DNA from: Gammaproteobacteria bacterium
GTDB lineage: Bacteria > Pseudomonadota > Gammaproteobacteria > Arenicellales > JAJDZL01
Reading direction: 5' to 3'
DNA length: 64,000 nt
NCBI GenBank assembly: GCA_022823625.1
Contig: JAJEHQ010000001.1
Coordinates: 124,001-188,000, forward strand
Shown here: in pieces, positions 34,998 through 40,083 of the stretch
Layout of the letters: each line of letters opens with the position of its first letter
Numbering within the stretch: position 1 is the stretch's first letter
The notes under the pieces: generated by a model
What the model was told of the DNA's origin: nothing
The model's database searches: none
Seen by the model: only the letters and a program-made list of their open reading frames with translations
Program-made: the position numbers and the translations under genes

Positions 34998-35975
34998 ATG
35001 AAAAATCCAGTCAGAGTAACAGTTACAGGAGCAGCGGGGCAGATCAGCTACAACTTGCTGTTTCGATTAGCGGCCGGTGAGATGCTGGGCAAAGACCAAC
35101 CCGTAATTCTCCAATTGTTGGAAATTCCCCCGGCAATGAAAATGCTGGACGGTGTAGTGATGGAACTTGAAGACTGTGCCTTTTCGACTTTGTCCGGAAT
35201 TATCGCCACCGACAATTCGGAACTTGCTTTCGGTGACGCCGAATATGTACTGATGGTTGGTGCAAGGCCACGTGGACCGGGTATGGAACGGAAGGACCTG
35301 CTGGAAGCGAATGCCAAAATATTCACGGAACAGGGTTCAGTATTGGACCGAGTCGCAAGTCAGAATGTGCGTGTTCTCGTTGTTGGAAACCCGGCCAATA
35401 CCAATGCTTTGATCACAGCCAGCAAGCTACAGCGTTTGGACGCTTCACAAGTCACAGCAATGACCCGATTGGATCATAATCGTGCAATCAGTCAAATTGC
35501 TGCAAAGACAGGTAGTTTTTCCTCCTCCGTCAAACGGGTCATAATCTGGGGTAATCATTCAGCAACACAATATCCGGATATTCATCACGCTACTGTCGAC
35601 GGGGCATCAGCTTTGGATGTGGTAGACCAGAATTGGATTGAGTCAGAGTTTATCCCCACAGTACAAAAAAGAGGTGCACAAGTCATTGCTGCCCGTGGGC
35701 TTTCAAGTGCTGCGTCTGCCGGTTCAGCGGCAATGGACCATATCAGGACATGGATGCAGGGTACACCGACTGGCGACTGGACAAGTATGGGAATTGTTAG
35801 TGACGGCTCTTATGAAATTACAGACGGTTTGATTTATTCATACCCGGTAACATGTAAATCCGGTCACTATGAAATTGTTCAGGATTTGGAAATCAATAAG
35901 TTCAGTCGAGATAAGATGCAAATTACTGAACAGGAATTGATCGAAGAACGAGACGCAATCGCTAATTTGCTCTGA
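34998..35975 (+). CDS. mdh: Malate dehydrogenase (NAD-dependent, type 2)
   Basis: 325 aa, catalysing malate to oxaloacetate in the TCA cycle. The nucleotide-binding [17 protein letters not shown], the substrate-binding arginines in [15 protein letters not shown], the NPANTNA block, MTRLDHNRA and the catalytic His in [12 protein letters not shown] are all present. The sequence is of the cytosolic-type group (as in Thermus and animal cytosol) and not the enterobacterial 312-aa type. The GTG of the next gene starts one base after the stop, so mdh may be co-transcribed with the glycosyltransferase-SPL trio. Confidence 0.96.
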
Positions 35976-35976
35976 A

Positions 35977-36819
35977 GTGTTTGACTGCTCTGCAGTGATT
36001 CCGGCTTACAATCGGAAAGACAGGATTCAACCAACAATAGAGTCAGTTCTAAATCAATCTGTTTTGCCGCGCGAGATTATCGTCGTGGATGACGGCTCAA
36101 CTGACGGAACTTCAGAGTTCATCAAATCAACATTTCCTGATGTTAAAGTTGTGACCCAGGCTAACCAAGGTGTCAGCGCAGCTAGAAACAGAGGAATCAT
36201 GGAAGCCAAGGGAGAGTGGGTAGCGTTTCTTGATTCAGATGACGAGTGGCTTCCGTCGAAACTGGAAATTCAGTCCAGTTGGCTTAGAAACCACCCTGAT
36301 ATCAAGATATGTCACTGCGACGAAATCTGGATCAGGAATCAAGTTCGCGTCAATCCTGGTAAACGGCACAAAAAGCAGGGCGGATGGATATATCTAAACT
36401 GCTTGCCACTATGTGTCATCTCTCCATCAGCCGTTGTAATCAATCAAGAGATATTTGACGAAGTAGGAGTGTTCGACGAATGCCTGCCAGCATGTGAAGA
36501 TTATGAATTGTGGCTTCGAATTACCCCAAAATTTGAGGTTGGTTATGTTGACCGACAGTTGCTAGTCAAACATGGAGGGCATAGTGACCAGTTATCTAAG
36601 GCGTATGCGGGGATGGATCGGTTTCGGATCACAGCACTGGTCAAATCTTTGGAACAGGGTGTTCTATCATCCGCCCAGCGAAAGAGCACGATTGAAACAT
36701 TAATCAATAAAACTGAAATTTATTTGAAAGGTGCAAGAAAGCGCGGGAAGCTCTTTGAAGTAAATGATCTTGAAACGCTTTTGGAACGCTATAAAGCAGA
36801 GCTAAGTGAACTTGGATGA
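35977..36819 (+). CDS. Family 2 glycosyltransferase
   Basis: 280 aa from a GTG start one base after the mdh stop. The GT-A fold is visible: SAVIPAYNRKDRI, VVDDG (Asp38-Asp39), GVSAARNRGI and the metal-binding DSDD (86-89), plus a later CEDYELWLRI that supplies the acceptor-side acidic residues. No membrane segment is apparent. It overlaps the next gene by ATGA. The transferred sugar and acceptor are unknown. The tight coupling to a nucleosidase and an SPL-like enzyme is unusual for a polysaccharide gene. Confidence 0.9.
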   Translation: MFDCSAVIPAYNRKDRIQPTIESVLNQSVLPREIIVVDDGSTDGTSEFIKSTFPDVKVVTQANQGVSAARNRGIMEAKGEWVAFLDSDDEWLPSKLEIQSSWLRNHPDIKICHCDEIWIRNQVRVNPGKRHKKQGGWIYLNCLPLCVISPSAVVINQEIFDEVGVFDECLPACEDYELWLRITPKFEVGYVDRQLLVKHGGHSDQLSKAYAGMDRFRITALVKSLEQGVLSSAQRKSTIETLINKTEIYLKGARKRGKLFEVNDLETLLERYKAELSELG

Positions 36820-37631
36820 ATCACAGTGTAAATCTCATAGTTGCTCTGAAAGCTGAAGCTCAACCTCTGATCGAATTCTTCGAACTAAAGGCATTACCGG
36901 TTGATGAAACCATTTCAATATTTGCTAACCATGAGGTAACACTTGCCCTTGCCGGTATGGGAAAATCAGCTGCGGCACATGCAGTCCAGTGCGTCAAAAA
37001 CACGAATCAGGGTTGTGTCAATGCATGGTTAAACATTGGTATTGCAGGGCATGGAGAATTTGATGTAGGTCAGGGATTCCTGGCAAATAGAATTGTTGAT
37101 CAGACTACCATGAAAACCTGGTATCCGCAGTTTGTGTTTCAACCAGTCTGTCGAACCGGAACCCTAATGACTGTCGATAAAGTTGAGACAGACTATTCAG
37201 ACCCGGTAGGCTATGACATGGAAGCGTCTGGATTTTATTCCGCAGCAGTTAATTGCTCCACAATTGAGCTGGTGCACACTTACAAGATTGTTTCGGATAA
37301 TCCGAGAAATTCGGTCGCAAAAGTCACCCGTTCCAAAATAGACAATCTGATCAAATCTAAACTGTCAGAAATCCGATGTACGATCGATTCACTTAAAAAG
37401 CTAACAGCAGAAGTTGCTACTCGAAACTCATCAGATGAGTTGTTGCATCAATTTCTTCAACGATGGAGATTTTCAGTTACTCAGCAGATTCAACTGAAAT
37501 CATTTTTATGTAAAACCAATGTATTAAAGATTGATATTGATGTTGAGTCTAATGAATTTATGTCGTGTCGAAATGGCAAATCGGCTTTAAAAGTCGTTGA
37601 GAGAACTGTAGAAACGCATTGGCGTAATTAA
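36816..37631 (+). CDS. MTA/SAH nucleosidase-like (PNP superfamily) protein
   Basis: 271 aa. The first ~170 residues resemble 5'-methylthioadenosine/S-adenosylhomocysteine nucleosidase: Glu14 (LKAEAQPL), LNIGIAGHG, the Met135-Glu136 pair (YDMEASGF) that binds the ribose, and Asp161 (IVSDNP), the catalytic acid. The remaining ~100 residues are a helical, basic C-terminal extension not found in MTAN. It overlaps the glycosyltransferase gene by 4 bp and is 11 bp upstream of the SPL-like gene. A role in clearing 5'-deoxyadenosine or SAM by-products of the radical SAM partner is an inference. Confidence 0.8.
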   Translation: MNHSVNLIVALKAEAQPLIEFFELKALPVDETISIFANHEVTLALAGMGKSAAAHAVQCVKNTNQGCVNAWLNIGIAGHGEFDVGQGFLANRIVDQTTMKTWYPQFVFQPVCRTGTLMTVDKVETDYSDPVGYDMEASGFYSAAVNCSTIELVHTYKIVSDNPRNSVAKVTRSKIDNLIKSKLSEIRCTIDSLKKLTAEVATRNSSDELLHQFLQRWRFSVTQQIQLKSFLCKTNVLKIDIDVESNEFMSCRNGKSALKVVERTVETHWRN

Positions 37632-37642
37632 ACAATCTGCAA

Positions 37643-38707
37643 ATGTATAGAAATATTTATGTCGAATCTGAAGTGCTGCGGTATCACCGTGTTAAGGAGA
37701 TTTTGGCACGATATACCGACGCATCGGTTGTGACATGTGATCGATATACGGAAATTTTCAACCTAAAGTCTCAGGACTTCAGGCTGCAAAAAAAACAGCC
37801 TGCGCTGATTCTGGCAAGAAAACACAGAGGATATATCCAACAGGCACCGGCGGGATATGGTGTGGGCGGCGATCATAACTTCTATTTTTCGACGATGATG
37901 AACTGTCTTTATGATTGTCGATATTGTTTTCTGCAGGGCATGTACCGCTCAGCGAACCATGTGGTATTTGTAAATTATGAAGATTTTTCCAGTGCCCTGT
38001 TGAAAACAGCTGCCAGGTTCGAGAAGGATGAACAGGTGTGGTTTTTTTCAGGATACGACTGTGATAGCCTAGCCCTGGAACCAGTTCTCAGTATGGCTGA
38101 TTTCTTTATTGAAACAGTGTCATCAAGTCAGAATGTATGGCTTGAATTGAGAACCAAGAGTACTCAAATTCGTTCGCTTTTGAAGCGCACACCACTGCCA
38201 AATATCGTGACTGCATTTAGTTTTACACCGACAGCAATTTCAGAACAGATTGAACATCAAGTACCAGGAGTTGAGAAGAGACTTGCGGCTATGCTCCGAT
38301 TGCAGGAGCAGGGATGGTCAGTTGGACTTCGATTCGATCCACTCATTTACTCGCATAATTTTCGAGAGCAGTATCAGGATCTGTTCAACCTTCTGTTTTT
38401 GTCTTTGAACCCAGACCTTATTCATTCCATAAGTATTGGTGTTTTTCGATTACCAAAAGATTTCTATAAGCAACTGGAGCGACTCTATCCGGACGATAGC
38501 TTCATCGCCCAGCCATTTAATTCACGAAACGGGCAAGTTTCTTATCCACTGAATATTGAACTTGAGATGAAAAGCTGGTGTTATAAGCAGATTCAGGAAC
38601 ATATCGAGAAAAACAAAATCTTTTTTGCAGAAATTTCGGTACCAGATTCTATTCCAGCAACATCTATCTCGTTAAAATCTGAACTCGATGTACGAAATGT
38701 CAATTAA
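37643..38707 (+). CDS. Spore photoproduct lyase-like radical SAM protein
   Basis: 354 aa. The radical SAM cluster motif is Cys88-x3-Cys92-x2-Cys95 (NCLYDCRYCFLQ). A Cys at 140 (SGYDCDS) lies at the place of the H-donating Cys141 of Bacillus SPL, and overall length is close to the family's ~340 aa. SPL reverses the thymine spore photoproduct in DNA. This organism shows no sign of sporulation, so the substrate is an open question. It is the last gene of the coupled trio; no terminator is evident after it. Confidence 0.88.
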   Translation: MYRNIYVESEVLRYHRVKEILARYTDASVVTCDRYTEIFNLKSQDFRLQKKQPALILARKHRGYIQQAPAGYGVGGDHNFYFSTMMNCLYDCRYCFLQGMYRSANHVVFVNYEDFSSALLKTAARFEKDEQVWFFSGYDCDSLALEPVLSMADFFIETVSSSQNVWLELRTKSTQIRSLLKRTPLPNIVTAFSFTPTAISEQIEHQVPGVEKRLAAMLRLQEQGWSVGLRFDPLIYSHNFREQYQDLFNLLFLSLNPDLIHSISIGVFRLPKDFYKQLERLYPDDSFIAQPFNSRNGQVSYPLNIELEMKSWCYKQIQEHIEKNKIFFAEISVPDSIPATSISLKSELDVRNVN

Positions 38708-38896
38708 GATCCTTTCATGTGTAATAAAGTAGACTCTGACTATGATTTTTGTCAGTCTGAATATTTCTCTGCCTGCATTTCTCGGTGATACGATAATGCT
38801 AGGGGTGAACAATCCAAAGGCTTGCCACGGTTTGCGAGTGCCCGATAAGAGAAAGTAAATCAAATGGTAATGTAGATTTACTGGCATAAGCAATGA

Positions 38897-39226
38897 CAAA
38901 GGTTTTTCACGAATCAATGGAAGGCGTTCGTGGGGTTTTTCAAGTCCTATACCGAAGCGGAACTCATCAAGCTGAATGCTAAGGGGTTCATCAACGATGA
39001 CGGACTTGCGGAGCCTGTGGTTGGCCTCGAGCCCGACGGCCCCGGTTTTTCCGGCCCGGAATTCCTAATGGCGTAGCAAGATGTCTGGAGCGTTCGGGAT
39101 ACCACTTTTTCGAACTGGTACGTGATCGAAATCGAAGCGGAAATACCGGATCGCCTTCGAGCCCTCAAAGATCTGCCGCAGACCGATTTCGTGCTTCAGA
39201 ATTACGGCTTGTGGCTGTGCCACTGA
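38897..39226 (+). pseudogene. Decayed, unrecognised gene with in-frame amber
   Basis: An open frame without a start reads FFKSYTEAELIKLNAKGF, then is cut by TAG at 39074, and continues in the same frame as DVWSVRDTTFSNWYVIEIEA to GLWLCH and a TGA. Codon choice is G/C-rich at third positions, unlike the flanking AT-rich DNA, on both sides of the stop. This fits the remains of a horizontally acquired gene. I do not recognise the family. A minus-strand frame across 39065-39286 is less convincing. Confidence 0.5.
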
Positions 39227-39362
39227 AAAGAGCCGTTCGGCTTCGCGGACAGGTCGTTGTCTGGGCCGGTTCAGGCCGAGTTTCATCGCTCTTCGAAAAG
39301 ACTGATACGCTGTCCCCTGATTACGATGATATTTTGTTTACACAAATGGAAAATGTTTACCG

Positions 39363-39391
39363 TTGACAATATTCTATTTGTGGAATATATT
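39363..39391 (+). promoter_or_regulatory. Sigma70-type promoter with operator for the toxin-antitoxin pair
   Basis: TTGACA (39363-39368) and TATATT (39386-39391) are separated by exactly 17 bp. The inverted repeat ATATTC (39369-39374) and GAATAT (39383-39388) sits between and overlaps the -10. A repressor bound there would block the polymerase, as expected for autoregulation by an antitoxin. AAGGA follows at 39398, just before the toxin start. Confidence 0.75.
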
Positions 39392-39406
39392 CTCTTTAAG
39401 GAATGA

Positions 39407-39772
39407 ATGATGGCTTGGGAGGCGGAGTATACAGATGAATTTGGCAAGTGGTGGGACACCCTCACTGAGAATCAACAAGATAGCATCACCGCCACGGTGG
39501 AGTTATTAATGGAATATGGCCCTCAACTGAAATTTCCGCATTCCTCGAGCATTGAGGGTTCCAAGTATAGCCATATGCGTGAGCTACGAGTTCAATCGGG
39601 CGGAAATCCCATCAGAATATTTTACGCCTTTGACCCTCGTAGAATAGCCATACTGCTGACTGGTAGCAGCAAGACGGGAAAAGACCGCTTTTATGAGGAA
39701 CAAATCCCCGTTGCCGACAAGCTGTATACCCAGCACATTGAAGATCTGAATAAAGAGGGGTTAATCAAATGA
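39407..39772 (+). CDS. HigB/Gp49-family type II toxin
   Basis: 121 aa (or 120 from the second ATG, better spaced from AAGGA). It resembles RelE/HigB-like toxins of the phage Gp49 family: an N-terminal WEAEYTDEFGKWWDTL helix, basic MRELRVQSGGNPIRIFYAFDP and LLTGSSKTGKDRFYEEQIP. Such toxins cleave mRNA on the ribosome. The toxin precedes the antitoxin, the HigBA order, with a 4-bp overlap. Confidence 0.88.
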   Translation: MMAWEAEYTDEFGKWWDTLTENQQDSITATVELLMEYGPQLKFPHSSSIEGSKYSHMRELRVQSGGNPIRIFYAFDPRRIAILLTGSSKTGKDRFYEEQIPVADKLYTQHIEDLNKEGLIK

Positions 39773-40083
39773 CTGGCAGAAACAAATTTTCCAAACTGAC
39801 AGAAAACTTGTCGCCGGAGCGGCGTGCCAAAATCGAAATGCGCAAGATTGACCTGCGTGAAGAAATGGCACTGCACGAACTGCGCAAAGTTCTCGGTACA
39901 TCACAGGCAGATTTGGCGGCACGACTCGACGTAAACCAACCCGCCATCACCAAGATGGAGCGCCGCACAGATATCCGCATTAGCAGCTTGAAGAGAATGA
40001 TTGAAGCAATGGGCGGTTCGCTGGAAATCAAAGCCTGTTTCCCTCAAGGCGATGTCACAATCACAAACTATAGGAATACCTGA
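39769..40083 (+). CDS. XRE-family antitoxin (HigA-like)
   Basis: 104 aa. A helix-turn-helix is clear at about residues 45-66 (SQADLAARLDVNQPAITKME), followed by a dimerisation segment (SSLKRMIEAMGGSLEIKA). It is translationally coupled to the toxin by an ATGA overlap and would repress the promoter upstream through the palindrome there while neutralising the toxin. Confidence 0.9.
   Translation: MTGRNKFSKLTENLSPERRAKIEMRKIDLREEMALHELRKVLGTSQADLAARLDVNQPAITKMERRTDIRISSLKRMIEAMGGSLEIKACFPQGDVTITNYRNT

Follow-up and report, generated by a model that had tools for sequence, protein, structure and literature searches.

A glycosyltransferase, an MTAN-like nucleosidase and an SPL-family radical SAM enzyme form one genetic unit that probably serves biosynthesis

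Downstream of the malate dehydrogenase gene mdh, a gammaproteobacterium that does not form spores carries a gene for a protein resembling spore photoproduct lyase (SPL), which is preceded by genes for a glycosyltransferase and a nucleosidase-like protein. This raises the question of whether the three genes serve a common process and, if so, whether this process concerns DNA lesions, as had been proposed in an earlier note on this DNA, or something else. We therefore followed up the genes of the window, i.e., the whole analyzed stretch of 64,000 nucleotides, in other genomes.

Gene order and co-occurrence

The window encodes, on the plus strand, mdh (34998-35975), a GT2 glycosyltransferase of 280 amino acids with a GTG start (35977-36819), an MTAN-like nucleosidase of 271 amino acids (36816-37631), and an SPL-family radical SAM enzyme of 354 amino acids (37643-38707). 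The ORF table and the sequence agree with the earlier description of three intact genes: one free base separates the mdh stop codon from the glycosyltransferase gene, which overlaps the nucleosidase gene by 4 bp, and an 11-bp gap precedes the SPL-like gene. Beyond the genus, mdh is linked to this cassette only in a few related families.

We compared the neighbourhoods of high-scoring SPL-like genes at 68 loci. In 59 of them, the nucleosidase gene is located directly upstream of the SPL-like gene, with a median overlap of 4 bp; this number comprises 57 same-strand, directly upstream cases and two overlapping cases from a re-check, and three of the pairs are single fused open reading frames. The fusions are encoded in Fusobacterium vincentii (L062, 8107-9978), Scybalocola (L011, 5005-6993), and a third genome of the Bacillota phylum. 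The pairing spans Gammaproteobacteria, Bacillota, Desulfobacterota-type genomes, and Fusobacterium, and the SPL-like protein also occurs in gut Lachnospiraceae and Eubacteriaceae. Adjacency and fusions thus bear out the link between nucleosidase and radical SAM enzyme that the earlier note had drawn. A few members have a degenerate nucleosidase or none. Neither repair genes nor mqn genes were noticed beside the cassette in the examined neighbourhoods.

Some loci show additional features. Three of them (L118-L120) contain the SPL-like gene without the nucleosidase gene, preceded by a gene for a repetitive coiled-coil protein. In four others (L003, 4665-5147; L004; L085; L092), the glycosyltransferase and nucleosidase genes are separated by a dual-specificity-phosphatase-like gene, and a PutP-like sodium symporter is encoded downstream. 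The Fusobacterium vincentii record (NZ_CP084075.1, L062) is filed as a plasmid, although its size of 2.1 Mb fits a chromosome. An anti-phage defence system was considered and rejected, as none of the three proteins matched a PADLOC defence model, and a phage origin was dismissed, as no relative was confirmed among 2.9 million viral contigs.

A fourth gene, encoding a short-chain reductase (SDR), immediately follows the SPL-like gene in 33 of the 68 loci, again with a median overlap of 4 bp, and the YxxxK motif is kept in all 33 SDRs. Three species of the window genus carry it. In the window species, neither an SDR nor a convincing remnant was found at the corresponding position (38708-39406), and no ortholog is encoded elsewhere in the genome (best match, 28% identity), which explains why the gene was overlooked in the earlier note. 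Between the SPL-like gene and dapB, where same-genus relatives have the SDR, the window contains a RelE/HigB-like toxin gene (PF05973) and, overlapping it by 4 bp, a gene for an HTH antitoxin (39407-40083). In three related gammaproteobacterial genomes (L101, 4820-5809, minus strand; L102, 4381-5370, minus strand; L138), an aldo-keto reductase gene occupies the place of the SDR gene, following a related SPL subtype that is linked to a ParB_N-domain protein.

The glycosyltransferase gene is located upstream in 35 of the 68 loci, including 34 of the 42 gammaproteobacterial ones; most members from Bacillota and Fusobacterium lack it, and several members lack the SDR. Within the same genomes, orthologs of the window enzyme (44-55% identity; E-values of 3e-66 or better) are clearly separated from other GT2 enzymes (6e-31 or worse). 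Among 369 gammaproteobacterial genomes, we found 59 with both glycosyltransferase and SPL-like protein, 5 with the SPL-like protein only, none with the glycosyltransferase only, and 305 with neither (Fisher test, 5e-63, a value that ignores relatedness). In 297 genomes from the phylum of the deltaproteobacterium at locus L008, the corresponding numbers were 163, 19, 10, and 105 (Fisher test, 1e-47, likewise ignoring relatedness). These calls depend on fixed E-value cut-offs, and draft genomes inflate absences. The glycosyltransferase, whose role the earlier note had left unexplained, is thus a constant partner (59/59 and 163/173 glycosyltransferase-positive genomes) and the most consistently co-occurring one of SPL-like proteins. 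The positive gammaproteobacteria cover 31 families; in four of these, the members differ in whether they have the cassette-type SPL or another SPL subtype, and the glycosyltransferase is always the same. Such a swap around the same enzyme argues against simple shared ancestry, although the counts are not tree-corrected.

Additional architectures connect the partners. A nucleosidase domain is fused to the N-terminus of the glycosyltransferase in four genomes, three from gammaproteobacteria and one from the second phylum; this order is opposite to that of the operon, so the fusion is not a simple read-through. Five other genomes have a glycosyltransferase-nucleosidase-SDR operon with an SPL subtype of 430 amino acids encoded elsewhere, in one case right beside it. 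In Desulfobacterota-type genomes, the glycosyltransferase, a ParB_N-domain protein, and an SPL subtype are grouped together. The ParB_N protein of about 330 amino acids is encoded directly before the related SPL subtype there and in some gammaproteobacterial genomes (L126, 4568-5572; L128, 1552-2589; L101, 6949-7962, minus strand). Together, the nucleosidase-SPL and nucleosidase-glycosyltransferase fusions tie all three proteins into one process. The GT2 enzyme, the nucleosidase, the SPL-family enzyme, and, in most gammaproteobacterial relatives, the SDR are genetically one unit. It also stays together across genomes in the absence of mdh, with conserved order, overlaps, and fusions in several phyla.

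Sequence and predicted structure of the proteins

The glycosyltransferase matches Glycos_transf_2 (PF00535, E = 2e-34), and its DxD-type residues Asp86/Asp88 as well as Glu174-Asp175 are invariant in a family alignment of 59 sequences. Judged by these features, it is a GT2 enzyme with a GT-A domain, a DxD motif, and a catalytic Glu-Asp motif, in agreement with the earlier assignment.

The nucleosidase-like protein had no Pfam match, the gathering score of PF01048 not being reached, and its sole NCBIfam match was futalosine hydrolase (TIGR03664), with 25 bits against a cut-off of 124.7. A profile built from 16 relatives retrieved MTA/SAH nucleosidases from the PDB (5e-11). Glu14, Met135-Glu136, and Asp161 align to Glu12, Met173-Glu174, and Asp197 of Escherichia coli MTAN; they are invariant in 47 cassette relatives and 10 divergent forms and are kept across all three architectures. 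The best structural matches of the AF2 model (pLDDT 95.7) were MTA/SAH nucleosidases, and futalosine hydrolase was also among them. Alignment, profile, and model therefore confirm the MTAN-like protein recognized earlier by these residues; by residues and model, the middle protein belongs to the MTA/SAH nucleosidase fold family. An ordinary nucleoside enzyme of the PF01048 family is additionally encoded in all 23 cassette genomes checked, so that the dedicated nucleosidase suggests a pathway-specific substrate.

According to the secondary structure of the model, residues ~183-271 (37362-37628) form a C-terminal helical extension, which is missing from the nucleosidase forms accompanying other SPL subtypes. 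At two loci (L096, 4396-5058; L116, 4949-5599), the protein encoded upstream of the SPL-like gene has no nucleosidase catalytic motifs and has lost most of the nucleosidase part, while the C-terminal helical region still matches. The region may therefore have a role of its own with the SPL-like enzyme. In the 430-amino-acid SPL subtype (L103, L136, L169-L188), ~100 extra N-terminal residues include the motif 'RFTxQELR'. Its resemblance to 'WRFTVTQ', found in the C-terminal extension of the nucleosidase, is vague and not significant, and homology of the two regions was rejected (hhalign E = 0.009, probability 4.5%).

The third protein matches the Pfam SPL family (1e-12), and Cys88, Cys92, and Cys95 of its CxxxCxxC iron-sulphur motif (37904-37927) are invariant in an alignment of 56 relatives. 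The six best Foldseek matches of its model were all Geobacillus SPL (5.8e-21, TM 0.78-0.82); one plasmid-collection record had been left out of the alignments for the structure models. The protein scored 67.5 bits against TIGR04070 (equivalog cut-off 400) and 64 bits against TIGR03886 (cut-off 437.55). In the tree, it falls into a clade apart from SplB with a support of 100/100 and a long stem. The basic hairpin of SPL (KRRYKWGRYGIGKY in SplB) is seven residues shorter. Phe96 occupies the position of SplB Tyr99 (Bacillus subtilis numbering; Tyr98 in Geobacillus); Phe is found here in the window and in 43 of the 56 relatives, and Tyr in the remaining 13. Additionally, a true SPL coexists with the SPL-like protein in 10 of 24 cassette-bearing genomes of the Bacillota phylum. 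Tree, score, residue positions, and this coexistence indicate that the protein is not a spore photoproduct lyase, and spore photoproduct repair was rejected on these grounds.

The catalytic cysteine deserves separate consideration. The fold and the three invariant cysteines uphold the earlier description as SPL-like, and Cys140, which had been listed with them, exists; however, four alignments place Tyr138 opposite the catalytic Cys141 of SplB (Cys140 in Geobacillus numbering), with Cys140 two residues further on in the same loop (Tyr138-Asp139-Cys140-Asp141, 38054-38065). The comparison with Geobacillus SPL thus agrees in fold and departs at this position. As assigned by sequence alignment, Cys140 is present in 36 of the 56 relatives and a Cys in the loop of residues 67-75 in 18, all of which have Thr or Ser at position 140, and 2 relatives have neither. 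Bona fide SPLs also alternate between two Cys loops, using C141 in Bacillus and C74 in Clostridium acetobutylicum (PMC5368176). The two cysteines replace each other as in SPLs, though shifted, which makes a role of Cys140 as hydrogen donor plausible; a first view that Cys140 is irrelevant, being two residues off, was softened once this alternation emerged.

Possible functions of the gene set

The gene set probably represents a biosynthesis route and not DNA repair. We tentatively favour a module in which the SPL-family enzyme adenosylates an acceptor and the nucleosidase, the reductase, and the glycosyltransferase follow, in the same order of steps as in the formation of the C35 hopanoid side chain. 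The radical SAM enzyme would form a 5'-deoxyadenosyl radical and attach this to an unsaturated acceptor; the hydrogen that terminates adenosylation would come from Cys140 or the Cys of the 67-75 loop. The nucleosidase would hydrolyse off adenine, leaving a 5-deoxyribosyl adduct. Its exposed aldehyde would be reduced by the SDR in most gammaproteobacterial relatives, possibly by an aldo-keto reductase in some others, and by an unlinked enzyme in the window species, and the glycosyltransferase would add a sugar as the last step.

This proposal is preferred because the nucleosidase stays with the glycosyltransferase and the reductase when the radical SAM subtype is encoded elsewhere, because the nucleosidase-glycosyltransferase fusion has the inverted order, and because ordinary nucleoside enzymes are already present in the cassette genomes. 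On the other hand, the SPL fold is known for hydrogen abstraction and lesion splitting, not for the addition of adenosyl groups, and in structure, the adenosylating enzyme MqnE matches only distantly (TM ~0.45). The glycosyltransferase is absent from most Bacillota and Fusobacterium members, the SDR from several, and the nucleosidase is lost or degenerate in a few; the aldo-keto reductase link comes from three related genomes, and the co-occurrence counts are uncorrected for shared ancestry.

Our preference is only moderate, and a second explanation is nearly as likely. Here, the substrate would be of sugar or nucleotide type; the radical SAM enzyme would abstract a hydrogen from it and consume SAM, the nucleosidase would destroy the inhibitory 5'-deoxyadenosine (5'-dA), the SDR would reduce the resulting ketone or aldehyde, and the glycosyltransferase would use the product. 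The Phe at the Tyr99 position in most relatives is in line with this, as the Y99F variant of B. subtilis SPL no longer regenerates SAM and releases one 5'-dA per turnover (PMC3742179), and pairs of a radical SAM enzyme and an NADPH reductase exist, such as AprD4/AprD3 (PMC5461906). The SPL-family fold and direct nucleosidase-SPL fusions would also fit local removal of 5'-dA. However, the 13 relatives with Tyr96 mostly have the nucleosidase too, ordinary nucleoside enzymes are present anyway, and neither the nucleosidase-glycosyltransferase fusion nor the retention of the nucleosidase beside glycosyltransferase and SDR with the SPL subtype elsewhere is explained.

Repair or modification of nucleic acid bases, which is close to the role proposed earlier, appears improbable. 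The SPL-like enzyme would act on DNA or RNA, the nucleosidase would remove 5'-dA or a released nucleoside, and the glycosyltransferase would decorate the base. Such a role would suit the SPL fold with its CxxxCxxC motif, the Cys that 54 of 56 relatives, like bona fide SPLs, have in one or the other of two loops, and the ParB_N-domain protein beside the related SPL subtype in Desulfobacterota-type genomes. It fits poorly with the shortened hairpin, the separate clade, and the true SPL encoded alongside. Moreover, the enzyme is constantly accompanied by a glycosyltransferase and a reductase instead of repair genes, and the hosts include Fusobacterium and gut anaerobes, in which UV lesions would hardly explain why the gene is kept. 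Together with the low profile score and the position of the catalytic residue, these observations speak against the DNA-lesion role.

A fortuitous grouping of unrelated genes after mdh, compatible with the SDR missing here and with the poorly conserved mdh neighbour, is refuted for practical purposes, as several phyla show the conserved gene order, the overlaps and fusions, and the co-occurrence across whole genomes.

A search of an open-access library returned no paper on the combination of glycosyltransferase, nucleosidase, and SPL-like protein; the pathway is widespread in bacteria and apparently undescribed. SPL-like proteins in non-spore-formers are easily taken for UV-damage repair enzymes; a large SPL-like clade has, instead, a specific glycosyltransferase, nucleosidase, and reductase as close partners. 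The proposed four-enzyme pathway can be tested directly, and its hosts are common environmental bacteria, some gut anaerobes, and Fusobacterium.

Relation to known systems

The closest relative by fold is SplB (TIGR04070, PF20903), which shares the radical SAM fold, the CxxxCxxC motif, and, in most members, a Cys in either of two active-site loops. The SPL-like enzyme differs from it by its score (67.5 versus 400 bits), its placement in a separate clade, Tyr aligned with Cys141, Phe instead of Tyr99 in the majority of members, the shortened basic hairpin, its glycosyltransferase, nucleosidase, and SDR partners, and a host that is no spore-former. TIGR03886 proteins of Alphaproteobacteria and Deinococcus belong to the same superfamily and likewise occur in non-spore-formers. 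Unlike the SPL-like clade, they group with SPL in the midpoint-rooted tree, the window protein stays far below their cut-off, and the loci of Aureimonas and Deinococcus gobiensis have no glycosyltransferase or nucleosidase neighbours.

AprD4/AprD3 of apramycin biosynthesis resembles the gene set in that a radical SAM enzyme and an NADPH reductase dedicated to it act on a sugar-type substrate. AprD4 is from a different radical SAM subfamily, and no nucleosidase partner of the pair is known. In the futalosine pathway, the adenosylating radical SAM enzyme MqnE is followed by the MTAN-type nucleosidase MqnB; here, the nucleosidase remains well below the futalosine hydrolase cut-off, the MqnE fold is distant, no neighbouring mqn gene was noticed, and a glycosyltransferase is present.

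None of the NCBIfam matches of the three proteins was to an HpnG or HpnH model. A further, non-hopanoid route of radical SAM adenosylation, in which an SPL-family enzyme, a dedicated nucleosidase, a reductase, and the glycosyltransferase lead to a ribosyl or ribityl glycoconjugate, is conceivable, though less likely than not. If true, about one sixth of the sampled gammaproteobacterial genomes and more than half of those from the second phylum would have this route, and three alternative radical SAM subtypes would serve it. To build the hopanoid side chain, HpnH attaches the 5'-deoxyadenosyl radical and HpnG then cleaves off adenine; the enzyme that turns ribosylhopane into bacteriohopanetetrol is not yet established, and HpnI carries out the glycosylation (PMC12583986). 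The C35 hopanoid pathway thus combines the same four classes of activity, i.e., a radical SAM enzyme, an adenine-removing enzyme, a reduction, and a glycosyltransferase.
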